Shown in pieces: positions 56,466-64,000 of a stretch of 64,000 nucleotides of DNA. The DNA comes from Nitrosomonas sp. (GTDB lineage: Bacteria; Pseudomonadota; Gammaproteobacteria; Burkholderiales; Nitrosomonadaceae), in the NCBI GenBank assembly GCA_024282035.1, contig JAMWZR010000008.1, positions 1 through 64,000 on the forward strand, in the 5' to 3' direction. Both the position numbers and the translations under genes were made by a program. Position 1 is the first letter of the stretch. Each line of letters begins with the position of its first letter. The notes below the pieces were generated by a model, which searched no databases, was not told where the DNA came from, and saw only the letters and a program-made list of their open reading frames with translations.

Positions 56466-56888
56466 TTGACCGGTCTTCTGAACAGAATAAAACGAGGTTG
56501 TTTTTTCCTATCCAGCCGGTCTATGGATGTGAAAAGGAGAAGGTTCGCAATATCAGGTGCATCATTTTTTTATCGTGTCATATTTCCGTAGTTTCTTCCG
56601 AGGCAACTATCCGTTAGGATTTTGCGTTCAATCAACATACTGAATCCATCACCCCGTAATATATCTCCAGTCGTACACCCGCTTTAAAATGAGTTGACCG
56701 TTTTGTCAGTGGCAAATGTCACAGCAATGCTAAGTGCATGTGCTGATAATGGAATGTCACGAGTCTGGCAAGGCATTGTGGTGGCGAGACGCGCATTTTC
56801 TGGGAAGATCAATTATCTGGTATGCGACCAATGAAAAAAGGTTATTCAGGGTAAATCAATACAATATGGATTTTTGCGAGCTTTTACC
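56466..56888. other. intergenic region between gatB and a LuxR-type regulator
   Basis: About 420 bases. No ORF with a ribosome binding site and no clear terminator; GTGGCAAATGTCAC at 56708-56721 resembles the first block of the duplicated element further right but is shorter and may be chance. Confidence 0.45.
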
Positions 56889-58028
56889 ATGCAATATGAC
56901 TTAGAAAAAGTAAATGCACTGATCGCTCAAATTTATGACGCCGCTCTGGATGACGCGCAGTGGCCTGTTGTAGTGCAGGGACTTGCACGCCTTCTCAAGG
57001 CTGAAGACAGTATTTTGTTTGGTTCACCTGAAAACACCAGTAATCAGATGATTGTGCTGTCCCCATTGCTTCATGCCGGCATTGATGCCGCAAAAGCGTA
57101 TGAAGCTTACTACTGGAAACATGATATTTGGCGGGCTGGCGCCACACAACATCAGTTAGATTATAGTGGCGCCATTTTTCACGGAGACCAGTTTATTGAT
57201 CGACGTTCATTCAAGGATACCGAGATCTATTGTGATTTTTTTAAACCTATGATGAATGGAACCGGGGTCGTTCTGACCTCGATTATCGAAGAGTCTGCGC
57301 AACAGCACCCCAATCCGGTTGTACTCAGTTTTTATAAATCATTCTCGGCTGAACCGTTCAATCGACAGGATGAAGATTTGATCCGGCATTTGATGCCACA
57401 TTTTCAACGTTCGCTACTGATTCGCCGCAAAATGATGGAAGAAAAGCTGAGGCGTCAGTTGATGGAACAAGCTTTTGATCAGGGTAAGGATGCTACTCTT
57501 CTTCTGGATGAAGCATGTAGGGTATTGTTTGCTAACCGAAAAGCCGAGTCAATGCTGAGCTGGGGCAATCTGACCATCAAGCAAAATCAGTTATTCAGTC
57601 ATGATTCGACCGAAAATAGCGCGCTCAAAGTTGCTTTACATAGTGCGATGAGAGGTGTTGGTGGTGTACAGAAATTTGATCACTTTTCCTCTTCTGCCAC
57701 TCGAATCGCATTATTTTCGCCTATTAAAGCCATACAAGGAGAGCAATCAAACGCGGCAGCAAGGATTATGGTGATCATTACCGAAATTGGTCAGTGTAAG
57801 AATAGCGAGCTTGCGAGTTTTGCTAGGCTGTATGGATTGACGAATGCAGAGACGCGTGTCCTTGAGCAATTGTTGCAACAACAGGATACTCGCGAAATAT
57901 CCAGCATATTGAAGATCAGTATCAATACGTTACGCTCTCACCTCAAGGCGTTGTTTGCAAAAACACATACCAAGAATCAACGTGATCTGGTCAATTTCTG
58001 TCGATCGCATCCCACGATTAATTTTTGA
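56889..58028 (+). CDS. LuxR-type transcriptional regulator, N-terminal sensor-like domain
   Basis: 379 residues from MQYDLEKVNAL; I prefer this ATG over an in-frame TTG five codons upstream. Residues 1-250 form a GAF/PAS-like part (IAQIYDAALDDAQWPVVVQGLARLL, DGTLLLDEACRVLFANRKAESML-type segment as ATLLLDEACRVLFANRKAE). The C-terminal helix-turn-helix (about 310-370) has LTNAETRVLEQLLQQQDTREISSIL and SINTLRSHLKALFAKTHT. It lacks a receiver, so it probably senses a ligand directly. Function unknown. Confidence 0.8.
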   Translation: MQYDLEKVNALIAQIYDAALDDAQWPVVVQGLARLLKAEDSILFGSPENTSNQMIVLSPLLHAGIDAAKAYEAYYWKHDIWRAGATQHQLDYSGAIFHGDQFIDRRSFKDTEIYCDFFKPMMNGTGVVLTSIIEESAQQHPNPVVLSFYKSFSAEPFNRQDEDLIRHLMPHFQRSLLIRRKMMEEKLRRQLMEQAFDQGKDATLLLDEACRVLFANRKAESMLSWGNLTIKQNQLFSHDSTENSALKVALHSAMRGVGGVQKFDHFSSSATRIALFSPIKAIQGEQSNAAARIMVIITEIGQCKNSELASFARLYGLTNAETRVLEQLLQQQDTREISSILKISINTLRSHLKALFAKTHTKNQRDLVNFCRSHPTINF

Positions 58029-58446
58029 GGTTTTTTAATATGGGAGCAAGTAAGGAAGTAGAAATGTATCTCACCCATATAGATGATGTTCTGAAAAGAT
58101 AGATCTGTAATCATGATAAGTATGCATAAATGAAATACTCTTAATACATTGAATTTATGTAGGTAGAGTGTATTTCCTTAAGTTTTGGACTGAGAAGAAA
58201 TGGACAGTTTGCAGCGATACTTTAAGTTTGTATTTGAGTGTTGTTGAAACAAAAATTGAGTTGATTAGTGATAGAGAGTGTGAGTTAGCATGCTATATAA
58301 AGAACAGATTGAGATAGAGTGTTCAGAAATTTTCTGCCGATCCTTCTATAGGGAGAGAGCTAATCGCATACGCTGAAACAGTCGCCAGAACTCATGATCC
58401 TATGTTCGTTGTCGTTAGATGAAGGATCAAAATTAGGGGGCACATA
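58029..58446. other. intergenic region before the orphan response regulators
   Basis: About 420 AT-rich bases. A 20-codon ORF at 58040-58102 has no good ribosome binding site and I do not call it. TTAGATGAAGGATCAA just before the next gene is echoed by CTAGATGAAGGCTCAA before its paralogue, so the two leaders share ancestry. Confidence 0.5.
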
Positions 58447-59127
58447 ATGAAATCAAGCAATACAAAGATAAATATTCTGGTGGCTGAAAGTATAGAGTTG
58501 GTCCGTATCGGATTGCGGTCTCTATTCAGTGAACACGCATCGTTTCATCTGGTTGCTGAAACAGCTTATATGATGGAGCTGCTTAATCTGGCCAAATTAC
58601 ATAAACCGGATGTCGTAATCTTAGATTTGCAATTGAGCGATGGCAACAATGTTGCAGAATCGATTGCTCGGCTGACGTATGCAAGTCCTGGTAGCAGGGT
58701 GCTAGCTTTCTCACAGAATAATTCTGAAAACGCCTATTTGCAGGCATTGCATTCCGGGGCTGCTGGGATCATTAGTAAAGGACATTCCTGTAAGATGATA
58801 CTCAAGGCGATTAATGCCATTGCATCGGATGAAGGTTGGTTTGATCGTCCGATGGTTCGGTCGACAAGAGTGTCGAATAGAGTTCACAATAAACTGGTCA
58901 GTGTACAAAATGATGATGTGTTAATTGATTCTTCAAAATTGAGCAACTGTGAACGCCGCGTTGCTGGCCTAGCAAGTCAAGGGTTGTCCGCAAAGGAAAT
59001 TGGCGCAAGGCTATTGATATCAGAAAAGACGGTGCGTAACCAATTATCTGTAATATATAAAAAAATGGGTGTTAAGAAACAAGTGGAACTGTGCCTGAAG
59101 GCTCATGAATACAAATATTTTCAGTGA
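58447..59127 (+). CDS. NarL-like response regulator with altered acidic pocket (paralogue 1)
   Basis: 226 residues. Receiver (about 8-125) and LuxR-type helix-turn-helix (about 160-215, LSAKEIGARLLISEKTVRNQL). The phospho-acceptor Asp60 (VVILDLQLSDG), Ser89 and Lys111 are present, but the metal-binding acidic pair is reduced to E14-S15 (LVAESIELV instead of ADDH). It may be phosphorylated poorly or act without phosphorylation. No kinase is adjacent. It is about half identical by eye to the next gene, clearly a tandem duplication. Confidence 0.88.
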   Translation: MKSSNTKINILVAESIELVRIGLRSLFSEHASFHLVAETAYMMELLNLAKLHKPDVVILDLQLSDGNNVAESIARLTYASPGSRVLAFSQNNSENAYLQALHSGAAGIISKGHSCKMILKAINAIASDEGWFDRPMVRSTRVSNRVHNKLVSVQNDDVLIDSSKLSNCERRVAGLASQGLSAKEIGARLLISEKTVRNQLSVIYKKMGVKKQVELCLKAHEYKYFQ

Positions 59128-59180
59128 AGAATAAATTCGGGATATTTTGTCTGAAAAAAACTAAAAAAGACCACAATGCT

Positions 59181-59258
59181 GGGACAAATGCCATCTATTC
59201 TATCAAATCCCAATTTGATAAAATCAAAAGCCAAATAAATTAGATAGATAGTGGCGAC
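59181..59258 (+). promoter_or_regulatory. duplicated upstream element, copy 1 (before response regulator 2)
   Basis: GGGACAAATG-C-CATCTATT, 14 variable bases, TTTGATAAAAT, then TAGATAG and GG-GA. Copy 2 at 60121 has the same blocks at the same spacing (33 bases from first block to TTTGATAAAAT). TTTGATAAAAT could be a -10 region with the first block as an activator site. ATCTA and TAGAT are inverted repeats of each other. It lies between the two regulator genes. Confidence 0.75.
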
Positions 59259-59381
59259 TCTGGTTTCTTCCGTGTTGTTGCGAGTCTTTAGAAATAAAAA
59301 TAACAACGGCTAGATGAAGGCTCAAGCGCTTGCTCCAAGTCTCCTGATTTTGGCCATAGGACTGATGTCCATTGCCCAAAT

Positions 59382-60110
59382 ATGGTTGAACGATCTCAAA
59401 ACAAAATTCGTATTTTGGTTGCGGAAAGCTTCGAACTGGTTCGTATCGGATTACGTTCCTTGTTTGAAAATCATGCTTCCATCCGGCTTGTCGCTGATAC
59501 CAGTTGTATTGAAGAGCTCATCAATCTGACTCTACAGCACAAACCGGATGTGATTCTGGTCGATCTGCAATTAAACAATGGTAATTGTGTTGGCCATATT
59601 TCCAAATTACTGAACGCCTGCCCGCAAAGTAAAGTTCTGGCTTTCTCACACCAGAATAATGAAACTATCTATCTACAAACTTTTCGTGCCGGTGCAGTAG
59701 GTATTATTAGTAAGCATCATTCTTCTGAATTGTTGTTAAAAGCCATCTATGCCATTCATGCTGGTCAGGTTTGGTATGACCGACATATTACCAAGCTGTT
59801 GTGGCAAGCCCAATTTGATCATCACCCGGCACAGGTTGAAGCGTTGCCTGACGCACAATCCATACCGCAACCTAAATTGAGTGATAGTGAGCGCCATATT
59901 GCTTTTTTGGCATGCAGAGGGCTTTCAGCCAAGCAAATTAGTACACAATTATTTGTAACGGAAAAGACAGTCAGAAATCAGTTGTCTGTAATTTATAAAA
60001 AGATTGGTGTAAAGAAACAAATCGAATTGTGCTTGAAAGCACCACTCTATAACTACTTCAGGGATTCCTACAATACCGGGATGTTTAACCCGGAAGATTC
60101 CGAGAAATAG
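59382..60110 (+). CDS. NarL-like response regulator with altered acidic pocket (paralogue 2)
   Basis: 242 residues. Same design as its neighbour: receiver with E15-S16 in place of the acidic pair, Asp61, Ser89 and Lys111 retained, helix-turn-helix with LSAKQISTQLFVTEKTVRNQL. It has a longer linker (about 140-165, HHPAQVEALPDAQSIPQPK) and a 20-residue C-terminal tail. The start lacks a strong ribosome binding site. It sits just before the multicopper oxidase locus, and its own upstream element is repeated in front of that locus, so the locus is a likely target or co-regulated set. Confidence 0.87.
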   Translation: MVERSQNKIRILVAESFELVRIGLRSLFENHASIRLVADTSCIEELINLTLQHKPDVILVDLQLNNGNCVGHISKLLNACPQSKVLAFSHQNNETIYLQTFRAGAVGIISKHHSSELLLKAIYAIHAGQVWYDRHITKLLWQAQFDHHPAQVEALPDAQSIPQPKLSDSERHIAFLACRGLSAKQISTQLFVTEKTVRNQLSVIYKKIGVKKQIELCLKAPLYNYFRDSYNTGMFNPEDSEK

Positions 60111-60339: not shown

Positions 60340-61341
60340 ATGCTGTTTCAATCAAACCAGTTGCCTGGTGCACTAGAACACGAAGAAGGTTCTAGCGCTG
60401 CGCAACCAGTAATGAACCAGCCTTCTCTGAAGCAAAAGCTTCTGAGGCTTGGTATGGGTGCGATGGTGTCTTTCCTGATGGTTCAAAGCTGTTTCGCTGC
60501 TCAACACGTCATTTCACTGACTGCAGAAGAGACACGTGATGATGGTTTCGGTAACAAATTGCTGGCTTACAAAATGGTGAGCCATCATATTGATGGTCAT
60601 AATGTAACCGACCGCTACAGCCCAGACGCAACGATTCCAGGGCCGACGATCGAGCTGACTGAAGGCGACAAAGTCAAAATATCCATTTTCAATGCGATAC
60701 CTAATAACAATGTTGCGGTAGCTGGTATCAGCAAACAGGTCAGTATTCACGTGCATGGCGTTCACTACAATATTTTGAGTGATGGTACGTTGAAAGTGAT
60801 CAACCAAGTCGATGACGAAGGTGCAGGTGCTGGCCTAGTACAAACTTATTCTGTATATGAATATGAATGGGATGTTGCACCCGGAACAGCAGGTACATGG
60901 GCATATCATGATCACAATTTTGAAACCCATAACGGTTCAGAACACAGAGGTTTATTCGGTGCCATCATTGTCAACCCTGTTGGTGGCCCAACTTTTGCCA
61001 GGGAATATGTGCTGTATTTAGGTGACGATGCATTCTGGGGTATGGAAATCGTTGGTCATACCAAGAAGCAAACCAAACATGGCCCGAATCCTACCTTATC
61101 TGCCAAAGCAGGAACTCGAGTACGTTTCCATCTGATTGCCTTGGGAACAGACATTCACACATTCAGACTGAATGGCTATCAATGGTTTGATCCAGGTACA
61201 AACAATCTTATCAGTCAAGTTGCGATTGGTCCGCTCGAAAAGCATGTGTTCAGCGTGAAGGCACTGCAAGATGCGCAGTATGTCGATACAAACCTGACAA
61301 ACAGGCTGCTGGGTATGAGAGGTAAATTCGATGTTCAATAA
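60340..61341 (+). CDS. two-domain multicopper oxidase-like protein, ligand set only in domain 1
   Basis: 333 residues from MLFQSNQLPG, chosen because GGAGGGG lies eight bases upstream; a longer TTG reading is rejected. A long N-terminal part with signal peptide ends near CFA-AQ (about 56). Domain 1 has HVHGVHY (H137, H139) and YHDH (H190, H192), the trinuclear-cluster ligands. Domain 2 keeps the fold (HTFRLNGY at 273-280, YVDTN...LLGM at 314-326) but has lost the T2, T3 and T1 ligands: R276, N278, V315, D316, T317, N321 replace His, His, His, Cys, His, His. The next gene supplies exactly those. It should be exported to the periplasm. Confidence 0.85.
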   Translation: MLFQSNQLPGALEHEEGSSAAQPVMNQPSLKQKLLRLGMGAMVSFLMVQSCFAAQHVISLTAEETRDDGFGNKLLAYKMVSHHIDGHNVTDRYSPDATIPGPTIELTEGDKVKISIFNAIPNNNVAVAGISKQVSIHVHGVHYNILSDGTLKVINQVDDEGAGAGLVQTYSVYEYEWDVAPGTAGTWAYHDHNFETHNGSEHRGLFGAIIVNPVGGPTFAREYVLYLGDDAFWGMEIVGHTKKQTKHGPNPTLSAKAGTRVRFHLIALGTDIHTFRLNGYQWFDPGTNNLISQVAIGPLEKHVFSVKALQDAQYVDTNLTNRLLGMRGKFDVQ

Positions 61342-61378
61342 AATAGAGAACAAGCACCTAATTGATAAGGATAGTGCA

Positions 61379-64000
61379 ATGAACAATAAGAATTCATCGG
61401 GTACCAGAAAACAGGCACTAATGATCCTGTTTTTTGTCGCTACATTTTTGACCTCTGCGATAGCATTTGCTGCGGTTCATAGTTTTAATCTGACTGCTAC
61501 AACATTGCCAAATGGTCAATTGGCTTATGCATTGGGAGCGAATGAGGCCGTTATTCCCGGACCGGCGCTGTTTGTAAAGGAAGGCGATACCCTCAAGGTT
61601 TCGCTGAAAAACGATACCAGTGCCGCTGTTAGTTTCAAGGTTCCAGGTTTGTCTGTAGCAAATCCTGCTAAGGTTAATCCGGGTCAAACCAAAAATTTTA
61701 CGGTACAAGCCAGCAAGGCAGGTACCTATGTTTATCATGGCGACATGAACGGTAAGGAATTGCTGGGATTGTTTGGTGCGCTGGTGGTGGATAAAGCCAC
61801 GGGGCCAGTAGATCGCTATGTAGAAGACAATGGTAAAATCGTTTCTGTGAGCAGAAATAATATCGACAAACAGTTCGTTCTGTTCATGGTCGGATCTACT
61901 TTTTGGGGTACGGAAGTCGCTGCGGACGGCACGCAAAAACCACTGTGGGCCAATCCTCATCCCGGTGCAGTTGAAAACGACATCGTGCGTTTCCACATTC
62001 TGTCGATTGGCCCCGGCCATACCTTCCACTTGCATGCTCATCGCTGGTTGAAGAAAGACACACAGGAAGTGATCGATACCAAATTGCTGGCTGAAGGTAC
62101 GGATACGCATTCATTTACCATCAAAGCCGGAACAGGTGTTGGTGCAGGTGCTTGGCAGTATCATTGTCATCTGATTGCGCACATGGAAGCAGGCATGCAT
62201 GGCAACTTCAAGGTGGAAGCTTTGGGAGGAACTGGAACCAGTGTCGTAGGTGCATCGCCTTACGGCAGGATTTTGCTGGGGCCGAAAGATGAGCCTGGCT
62301 TGGTGACCTTTGAAGTGAGTGACGAGCCTGCAAGCTGGTTTAGAAGCGCACGTGGCGATGCCATCGTGGAACTGAGCAAGCCAAGTGCTACCGGCTCACC
62401 ACTCCAAGGTGCAGACATCAAGACCAAGTCTCTGGATGTGATTGTTCCCGGCAGCAGTGTGAATTTCATCATGTCGGACACCAATGGCGTGCATACCATC
62501 AGTTCCCTGTTATGGCCAAGCGGGGCTGAACACATGCCCTATGATCAAAGCAGTGCATACCGTGGCGGGGGATTTGTCACCTTACATACGCCAGGGCTGT
62601 ATGTCTTTACCTGTAAGGTTCATCCGTACATGTTTGGTGCCGTGATTGTCGACGACCCTGCTACTGAAGGTCTTGATTTGGGTAATCCTGCCAGAAACTT
62701 CACAATCGATCTGGTTACCGGCATCAAAGATTTGCCAACCAGCAGCGATTTGGCAGTGCGTTTGCTGAAAACTTTCTTTATTGCCACAGCACCTGATAAC
62801 TGGCAAGACTACTCATCGGGATTGTGGAATGTCAGATTCCCGACTTTACCAGTGAGAATTTCCGGTGCGCCATTTGGAAATGTTCAAGATGGAGGGTTGG
62901 CTGCACCACTGTCGATTTTGAATGTTAACAATCAAGCTTTGACTGTTGGAGCTGCTCCAGCAACACCTGGTGTTGGTGAGGTGTGGGTCAATACCCAGTT
63001 TGAAAAAACTGCCGGAAAATACAAACCCGGAACCTCGACTGTTGTGGATACCACCACATGGAAAGTTAAACGTAAGGTTGCGTTGCCGCAAATCAACAAC
63101 AACAATCCGCACAATATGTGGTCAAGCCGTGACCAGTCGGTGATTTACCAGACACAGTGGTTTGATAACAAGTTCTCGATGATCGACCGTGAAACGGGCT
63201 CGCTGATCAAGAACATTACCGTGGGTTATTCACCTTCGCACGTGGTGACTTTGCCAACCAATGATGACATTACTATTGCTGTCAACGGTGAGAACGGTGT
63301 CATGGTCATTCCGGCAGGCACGACGAATGTCACCAAAATGATGCCAACACAGGCACAAGGCCATATTTCTGCCAATCCGCATGGTCACTGGATCAGTGCT
63401 GATGGTAAGAAAATCGTGACGCCAAACATCAATACCGATGATATCGGTATCTATGGTGCCAACGGTGGTATCCAGGCACGGACACCAACCGGGAACAATG
63501 CACCAGGCGCGCATCCGATCGCGATCGGTATGATGCCGGATTCCAGCAAGATTTATGCGGCGAATCTGTTGCACCATTCCATGACCGTTTTGAACGGAAA
63601 TAATGGTGCACTTTTGAAAACTATTAACCTGATTGCAGATTACAACCCCATCGATGGTACCTTTGCTGATAATGATGCAAATGGCGAAATTGCAGTAGGA
63701 GTATTGCCAATCCAGTCACCAGTATCTCCAGATGGCAAAGCAGTTGTTGTTGCCGCAACAGGTGGTCAGATCGTCATCATTGATACAGCTACAGATGAAA
63801 TCGTCAAGATGCTGCCTTGCGACCCAGGTTGTCATGGCGCCAACTTTGGTGCAAAAGCTGGCGGCGGGTATTACGCTTATGTCACGACGAAATTTGGTAA
63901 CAGACTGACTGTGGTTGATATCGATCCAGATAATAATGGCAATATCAGTGATGCAGCTATCGCGGGTTATGTCTCTTTGGTTGATGATGTCAATACGGCC
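61379..64000 (+). CDS. multicopper oxidase / plastocyanin-like / beta-propeller fusion, 3' end beyond window
   Basis: 874 residues visible, open to the right edge. Signal peptide ends near AFA-AV (about 32). Cupredoxin 1 (about 33-135) has lost its ligands: HVH became K87-V-P89, and YHDH became YHGD (H120, D122). Cupredoxin 2 (about 150-285) has HTFHLHAH (214-221) and HCHLIAHMEAGM (262-273), a complete T1, T2 and T3 set with Met axial ligand. A third cupredoxin, plastocyanin-like, has CKVHPYM near 411-417. From about 545 a beta-propeller with repeated SxDGKxI-type strands and conserved His (NPHNMW, SHVVTL, NPHGHW, AHPIAIG, LLHHSM, CHGANF) continues past the edge. AAGGATA precedes the start; gap to the previous gene 37 bases. 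Confidence 0.88.
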   Translation, partial: MNNKNSSGTRKQALMILFFVATFLTSAIAFAAVHSFNLTATTLPNGQLAYALGANEAVIPGPALFVKEGDTLKVSLKNDTSAAVSFKVPGLSVANPAKVNPGQTKNFTVQASKAGTYVYHGDMNGKELLGLFGALVVDKATGPVDRYVEDNGKIVSVSRNNIDKQFVLFMVGSTFWGTEVAADGTQKPLWANPHPGAVENDIVRFHILSIGPGHTFHLHAHRWLKKDTQEVIDTKLLAEGTDTHSFTIKAGTGVGAGAWQYHCHLIAHMEAGMHGNFKVEALGGTGTSVVGASPYGRILLGPKDEPGLVTFEVSDEPASWFRSARGDAIVELSKPSATGSPLQGADIKTKSLDVIVPGSSVNFIMSDTNGVHTISSLLWPSGAEHMPYDQSSAYRGGGFVTLHTPGLYVFTCKVHPYMFGAVIVDDPATEGLDLGNPARNFTIDLVTGIKDLPTSSDLAVRLLKTFFIATAPDNWQDYSSGLWNVRFPTLPVRISGAPFGNVQDGGLAAPLSILNVNNQALTVGAAPATPGVGEVWVNTQFEKTAGKYKPGTSTVVDTTTWKVKRKVALPQINNNNPHNMWSSRDQSVIYQTQWFDNKFSMIDRETGSLIKNITVGYSPSHVVTLPTNDDITIAVNGENGVMVIPAGTTNVTKMMPTQAQGHISANPHGHWISADGKKIVTPNINTDDIGIYGANGGIQARTPTGNNAPGAHPIAIGMMPDSSKIYAANLLHHSMTVLNGNNGALLKTINLIADYNPIDGTFADNDANGEIAVGVLPIQSPVSPDGKAVVVAATGGQIVIIDTATDEIVKMLPCDPGCHGANFGAKAGGGYYAYVTTKFGNRLTVVDIDPDNNGNISDAAIAGYVSLVDDVNTA

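Follow-up and report, generated by a model that had tools for sequence, protein, structure and literature searches.

Type B two-domain multicopper oxidases are trimers in which each trinuclear copper cluster sits at a subunit interface, shared by domain 1 of one chain and domain 2 of its neighbour. The known members (among them the small laccase SLAC and CjMCO) build homotrimers from a single type of chain that bears every ligand (PMC13151041). Six-domain oxidases (ceruloplasmin, hephaestin, and algal and bacterial forms) close a ring of cupredoxin domains within one polypeptide, a ring in which, according to PMC3600357, redundant trinuclear sites have been lost and at most one is left. Here we describe two adjacent genes, A and B, at the end of a 64,000-nucleotide stretch of a Nitrosomonas sp. 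genome (the window; positions 1-64000 of contig C31 in an assembly of 2.93 Mb and 97 contigs, hereafter the host genome). Their products share the fold, the ligand motifs and the domain-2 type 1 (T1) copper site of type B two-domain oxidases, but the ligands are divided over two genes and B differs further in its fused cupredoxin domain and beta-propeller. In contrast to the six-domain oxidases, the loss of copper sites in A and B is in trans between two genes, and neither chain holds six cupredoxin domains, A having two and B three.

Multicopper oxidases built from different subunits include the MnxEFG manganese oxidase and heterodimeric fungal laccases, in which the catalytic chain carries the full site and the partner chains are not known to be half-site paralogues. 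Small laccases are the nearest solved relatives of A and of domains 1 and 2 of B. Loci of a methanotroph type (L164-L178 and L180) are homologous to A/B and, with one exception, pair an oxidase gene with a downstream gene that encodes the same third domain and propeller, but there the oxidase is one complete gene, the propeller gene is separate and there is no split. The open-licence literature searched yielded no description of a split or reciprocal oxidase pair, which is not proof of absence, and no paper on the methanotroph-type oxidase/propeller pair. The N. europaea type I oxidase NE1543, named in PMC10781756, could not be matched to A or B, and the two induced oxidases of PMC13356812, which appear without locus tags in the text available, could not be identified as A and B.

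Reciprocal loss of copper ligands in adjacent genes

The start of gene B lies 37 bp after the stop of gene A (the frame also has an earlier ATG, at 61331, which overlaps A), and its frame runs 141 bp past the window. The closest loci among named records belong to Nitrosomonas. Twelve ligand columns were registered by alignment with a Streptomyces small-laccase homologue and with the complete methanotroph-type relatives. Domain 1 of A retains SIHVHG and WAYHDHN intact, which supply four trinuclear-cluster histidines, and in its domain 2 HTFRLNGY and YVDTNLTNRLLGM stand where HTFHLHxH and YHCHxxxHxxxGM are expected, all four cluster histidines being gone. B shows SFKVPG and YHGD in domain 1 where HxHG and YHDH are expected, and its domain 2 has HTFHLHAH and YHCHLIAHMEAGM intact. 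The T1 site in domain 2 keeps its His, Cys, His and Met in B but not in A, where the Cys has become Asp. Cluster histidines thus number four in A (all in domain 1) and four or five in B; the two chains have eight between them, and neither has eight by itself.

We hypothesize that A and B are subunits of an obligate hetero-oligomeric multicopper oxidase whose trinuclear site would form between domain 1 of A and domain 2 of B, a reading to which we assign a probability of roughly 85%. By ligand count, neither protein could form a cluster as a homotrimer.

The original prediction, made from the window alone, claimed reciprocal ligand loss in two adjacent genes, and the alignment bears this out, with both open reading frames (ORFs) in place. 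It rightly gave A all domain-1 ligands, and B all domain-2 ligands plus one domain-1 histidine (the latter lost in many relatives, with 36 of 66 keeping it). It credited A with a single domain-2 ligand where two remain, the first T1 histidine and the axial methionine, neither of them a cluster histidine. Its account of B was incomplete, missing the third cupredoxin domain, the propeller and the run-on past the window edge, and it likewise missed the unsplit methanotroph-type counterpart.

Conservation of the live and dead halves

Ligand conservation was counted over rows from named genomes (69 for A, 66 for B); a second set (52 A, 52 B), drawn largely from the same genomes and hence not independent, gave the same ligand picture. 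Each of the four cluster histidines in domain 1 of A is present in 68 of 69 rows, the remaining row being a 103-aa fragment (L126). Those in domain 2 of B are present in 63, 63, 64 and 64 of 66 rows and the T1 Cys in 65, the four deviating rows coming from L111 (a broken frame that gives two rows, one per half), L147 (an ORF with an internal deletion) and L126 (cut at a contig end). At the equivalent positions, domain 2 of A has histidine in 0, 0, 0 and 2 rows and domain 1 of B in 0, 0, 36 and 0. Broken ORFs aside, the live halves are invariant across Nitrosomonas, Nitrosospira and Nitrosovibrio, while the dead halves drift. This conservation of the ligand pattern across relatives excludes a chance origin of the reciprocal pattern.

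The remainder of each domain follows the same division. Mean identity within A is 65% in domain 1 vs 59% in domain 2, and within B 67% in domain 2 vs 56% in domain 1. With ligand columns excluded, mean identity to the complete relative is 55% for domain 1 and 37% for domain 2 of A, and 47% for domain 2 and 37% for domain 1 of B. The live halves therefore lie nearer the complete enzyme than the dead halves, which fits the prediction of complementary degeneration.

The same rows bear on whether A and B share a cluster at all. B could instead be an electron carrier working through the T1 coppers of domains 2 and 3, with A serving as a pseudo-oxidase or chaperone that binds copper and the genes lying side by side for regulation or copper delivery. 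Such a division is compatible with four cluster histidines in A alone and intact T1 motifs in both domains of B alone, but apart from broken ORFs every row retains its cluster histidines (those of domain 1 in A, of domain 2 in B), and neither set is evidently useful to a pure carrier or to a protein that never meets its partner. Moreover, complete relatives hold exactly these eight histidines in one protein. In B the cluster histidines vary no more than the T1 ligands do, although a mere electron carrier would have no need of them, and we consider an arrangement with no shared cluster unlikely.

The former T1 site of A is conserved in altered form, with its His kept in 61 of 69 rows, Cys replaced by Asp in 59 and Met kept in 65. 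In the seven A rows where the T1 His has become Asn, the Asp position has changed too (Asn in six, Thr in one). Because the His and Asp positions change together they seem to act as a pair, and the altered site may be either a new metal site or a structural pair.

Table 1 Features of the A/B locus, in window coordinates; row counts refer to the named-genome sets.
Feature	Position	Strand	Basis or conservation
Gene A: 333 aa, resembling two-domain multicopper oxidases; domain 1 live, domain 2 dead	60340..61341	+	ORF, Pfam, AlphaFold2 and Foldseek
A domain 1 HVH: two kept cluster His	60748..60756	+	His in 68/69 A rows
A domain 1 YHDH: two kept cluster His	60904..60915	+	His in 68/69 A rows
DIHTFRLNGYQW, relic in A domain 2: first T1 His present, neither cluster His left	61150..61185	+	Cluster His 0/69, T1 His 61/69
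QYVDTNLTNRLLGM, relic in A domain 2: no HCH, Asp in place of T1 Cys, axial Met retained	61276..61317	+	Asp 59/69, Met 65/69
Gene B: 920 aa; domain 1 dead, domain 2 live, then a third cupredoxin domain and a beta-propeller	61379..64000, on to contig position 64141	+	ORF, Pfam, AlphaFold2, fold search
B domain 1 relic SFKVPGLSV: HxH lost	61631..61657	+	Either His in 0/66 B rows
B domain 1 relic YVYHGDMN: one of two His left	61727..61750	+	First His 36/66, second 0/66
B domain 2 GHTFHLHAHRW: kept T1 His and two cluster His	62015..62047	+	63-64/66 B rows; deviants are broken ORFs
B domain 2 QYHCHLIAHMEAGM: kept two cluster His and T1 Cys, His, Met	62156..62197	+	64-65/66 B rows; deviants are broken ORFs
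B domain 3: pseudoazurin-like cupredoxin with its own T1 copper motif VHTISS ... FTCKVHPYMFG	62276..62698 (limits approximate)	+	
B beta-propeller, YVTN/lactonase type	62876..64000 (start approximate), continues beyond window	+	
NarL-type response regulator directly upstream of A	59382..60110	+	Pfam Response_reg and GerE

Co-occurrence of A and B and folding of the dead domains

An adjacent B on the same strand accompanies 62 of 68 named A ORFs, and 46 of 51 in a second, overlapping set. The six named A ORFs without a recognised neighbouring B lie at contig ends (L119, L141), in broken frames (L111 and L126, the latter with B also running into a contig end), at a scaffold break with a run of N (L128), and in an N. 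communis metagenome-assembled genome (MAG) whose B is internally deleted (L147). A survey of 61 genomes of the genus (60 plus the host), in which A was counted at E below 1e-60 and B by a B-model search, found both genes in 44, neither in 16 and a broken B remnant in one (G051); no genome with A only was seen among the 61. One of the 44 (G011) is the N. communis MAG, where the B-model match is A itself, B being internally deleted there. Distances among A and among B sequences correlate, with r 0.87 over 28 loci (phylogeny not removed). Homologues of A and B thus adjoin with the same ligand losses, contig ends, broken frames, a scaffold break and a deleted B being the exceptions, and this co-occurrence, which the original prediction had named as a check, supports its obligate hetero-oligomer with an in-trans trinuclear site as the best reading.

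Tandem A-B-A-B arrangements occur at two loci (L139 and L148), and N. supralitoralis has three A/B pairs (L105, L142, L143). The G051 remnant (contig C125, 31274-31780) carries two in-frame stops in a genome without A.

The AlphaFold2 model of A has a predicted local distance difference test score (pLDDT) of 81.8 and a predicted template modelling score (pTM) of 0.81; its best Foldseek matches are small two-domain laccases, with template modelling (TM) scores of 0.63-0.73. The model of B (843 aa) has pLDDT 85.7 and pTM 0.86; domains 1 and 2 match small laccases and the best match overall is a YVTN propeller. In the dead domains (residues ~180-302 of the A model and ~10-110 of the B model) most 10-residue blocks are near pLDDT 90, and both domains are predicted to fold.

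These results also speak to decay, that is, a degenerating duplicate oxidase drifting to non-function. The 16 of 61 genomes without both genes, the two-stop remnant in G051 and the internally deleted B of the N. communis MAG would all suit such a process, but the live halves are invariant over three genera, identity is higher in the live domain of each protein, and both dead domains are predicted to be folded, which makes decay very improbable.

Domain assignments and family identity

In Pfam searches, A matches Cu-oxidase_3 on domain 1 only, and B matches Cu-oxidase_3 (domain 1) and Cu-oxidase_2 (domain 2) above cut-off. Domain 2 of A has no Pfam call, yet it aligns with small laccases by sequence and in the model, and we judged A and B to have the architecture of two-domain oxidases. 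The best solved match of B domain 3 is the pseudoazurin 2ux6 (E 2.5e-6), and its T1 His, Cys, His and Met are kept in all 20 aligned rows, window included. The propeller matches Pfam Lactonase above cut-off, NCBIfam PQQ_ABC_repeats far below cut-off, and the YVTN propeller 1l0q by Foldseek. A stand-alone 610-aa paralogue elsewhere in the host genome (contig C85; L008:4461-6293, minus strand) comprises only the third cupredoxin domain and propeller of B, with 51% identity to B, and resembles the separate cupredoxin-propeller gene of methanotroph-type loci.

Two other identities were considered and rejected. A CopA-type oxidase does not fit, with TIGR01480 scores of 44 (A) and 58.6 (B) bits vs a cut-off of 478.95. 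It is also highly improbable that the heteromer is a nitrite-reductase-like enzyme with one type 2 copper at the interface: B domain 1 is weakly similar to TIGR02376 (41.7 bits vs a cut-off of 296.3, with no match listed for A), but the T1 ligands lie in domain 2, not in domain 1 where copper nitrite reductase (NirK) has its T1 site, and all eight oxidase cluster histidines are present between A and B. A nitrite reductase with two chain types (PDB 9cck) is a possible heteromeric precedent.

Proposed assembly and origin

The ancestor of A and B may have been a typical type B two-domain oxidase that formed homotrimers with interfacial clusters. Duplication, followed by complementary half-site loss in each copy and accompanied by fusion, would then have led to the reciprocal state read from the sequence. 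A working cluster would arise only where domain 1 of A meets domain 2 of B, with four histidines from each, and the family structure suggests that electrons enter through the T1 copper of B domain 2. The third domain of B, with its second T1 site, and the propeller may dock a donor or substrate and pass electrons to the domain-2 T1 site. Domain 2 of A and domain 1 of B, whose folding the models support, may persist as a ring scaffold. Sec-like signal sequences, judged by eye, are found on A and B, and both proteins would be periplasmic.

The hetero-oligomer of the original prediction is supported, but a 3+3 assembly with every site live would require an even-numbered ring. Because a three-membered ring cannot alternate A and B, there would be at most one live cluster per trimer. 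In any mixed ring of three, B is followed by A exactly once, so that by this reasoning an AAB or ABB ring would hold one live cluster, and even-numbered rings could alternate A and B; an A2B or AB2 assembly with a single live cluster is no less likely than an even-numbered ring with every site live.

Several points weigh against the proposed hetero-oligomer. A trimer with two kinds of subunit would pay an apparent cost in having at most one live site. One search of the host genome with B gave no further relative as a candidate third subunit. In the tree the A sequences, the B sequences and the complete enzymes form a group each, and outgroup branches are long; a clade of A plus B is neither shown nor rejected (approximately unbiased test, p 0.30), and in the best tree A falls with the complete enzyme, with 65/34 support. 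As the tree does not fix the root among these three groups, the order of duplication and loss is taken from ligands and gene order.

Distribution and the unsplit counterpart

A single scan of named genomes for A gave 99 relatives, of which the best 80, at 79 loci, were kept. Among these best 80, A is found in Nitrosomonas, Nitrosospira and Nitrosovibrio and in MAGs under other labels, oddly placed carriers being labelled Chromatiales (L138), Pseudomonadales (L157) and Nitrospirae (L141). The first two carry B as well and, in the A part of the tree as in the B part, cluster with N. marina and its relatives. Transfer or contamination could account for A in the three oddly labelled MAGs. Wider afield, carriers are rare: the A profile matched 4 of 369 genomes of the class (the host, G006, G122, G349), and the complete enzyme was matched at E 1e-18 in 2 of 398 genomes of the phylum (the host and G006).

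At the methanotroph-type loci L164-L178 the A/B homologue is a single complete oxidase, with all 12 ligands in 15 of 15. A homologue of the third domain and propeller of B, usually ~616 aa, follows it in 14, and behind the complete oxidase of L173 no separate cupredoxin-propeller gene was recognised. Twelve separate cupredoxin-propeller proteins that were compared are 45-50% identical to the corresponding part of B. The same arrangement of complete oxidase and propeller gene occurs on a Methylocystis rosea plasmid (L180), where the pair lies behind a sigma-70 family factor. Because this plasmid is typed mobilizable, the unsplit system may be able to move. A Methyloversatilis MAG (L164) has a complete oxidase separated from that of Methylocaldum by very short end branches (0.03-0.04); no AmoA was detected in this MAG, and contamination is possible.

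Association with ammonia and methane oxidation

AmoA/PmoA turned up in 11 of the 14 methanotroph-type carriers searched, L164, L175 and G122 being the exceptions, and also in L127 and L130. It was not found in the MAGs L138, L141 and L157, and AmoB/PmoB was not found either in these three or in L164, L175 and G122. A strict tie of A, B or the complete oxidase to ammonia/methane monooxygenase is rejected, since AmoA/PmoA went undetected in some carriers; the tie is strong but not absolute. In the host genome only an end of AmoB is present, at a contig edge, and AmoA was not found in the search, which we read as assembly loss; given this AmoB end and the Nitrosomonas identity of the closest named loci, we regard the host as an ammonia oxidiser.

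Association with other copper genes was counted by eye over the 61 genomes (pair in 44, absent in 17 including G051), with Fisher tests uncorrected for relatedness. Nitrosocyanin above cut-off showed no association, occurring in 26 of 44 genomes with the pair vs 9 of 17 without (p 0.78). NirK above the TIGR02376 cut-off occurred in 38 of 44 vs 9 of 17 (p 0.014), and when divergent NirK-like matches at 184-194 bits were included the counts were 41 of 44 vs 14 of 17 (p 0.34), so that a link between the pair and one NirK type is at most weak.

We tentatively extend the comparison with six-domain oxidases to a "ceruloplasmin in pieces", a ring with a single in-trans cluster that arose through complementary half-site loss in the ammonia-oxidiser line. 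Such a ring might act as a periplasmic redox partner of ammonia oxidation, for example by oxidising copper, nitrogen or electron-carrier species via the fused cupredoxin and propeller, though we hold this combined picture to be doubtful.

Neighbouring genes

A homologue of the response regulator upstream of A is found within 900 bp upstream, on the same strand, in 32 of the 82 loci L098-L179 (33 with looser clustering). Regulator aside, no other neighbour family occurred in more than 16 of these 82 loci. In the window, a row of three regulators bearing LuxR-type (GerE) domains precedes A at 56874-60110, and two of the three are NarL-type response regulators.

Implications

Judged by its ligands and their retention among relatives, the split enzyme is a new form within the known multicopper oxidase family, and the pattern is real and well conserved. 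If the proposed hetero-oligomer is correct, A and B would represent a new architecture for multicopper oxidases and a clean natural case of a homo-oligomer made into an obligate hetero-oligomer by complementary loss of half-active sites. The unsplit counterpart persists in methanotrophs, which makes the evolutionary steps testable. The pair also adds a widely kept, putative and probably oxygen-reducing enzyme to the bacterial ammonia oxidisers, whose copper redox chemistry is incompletely assigned.

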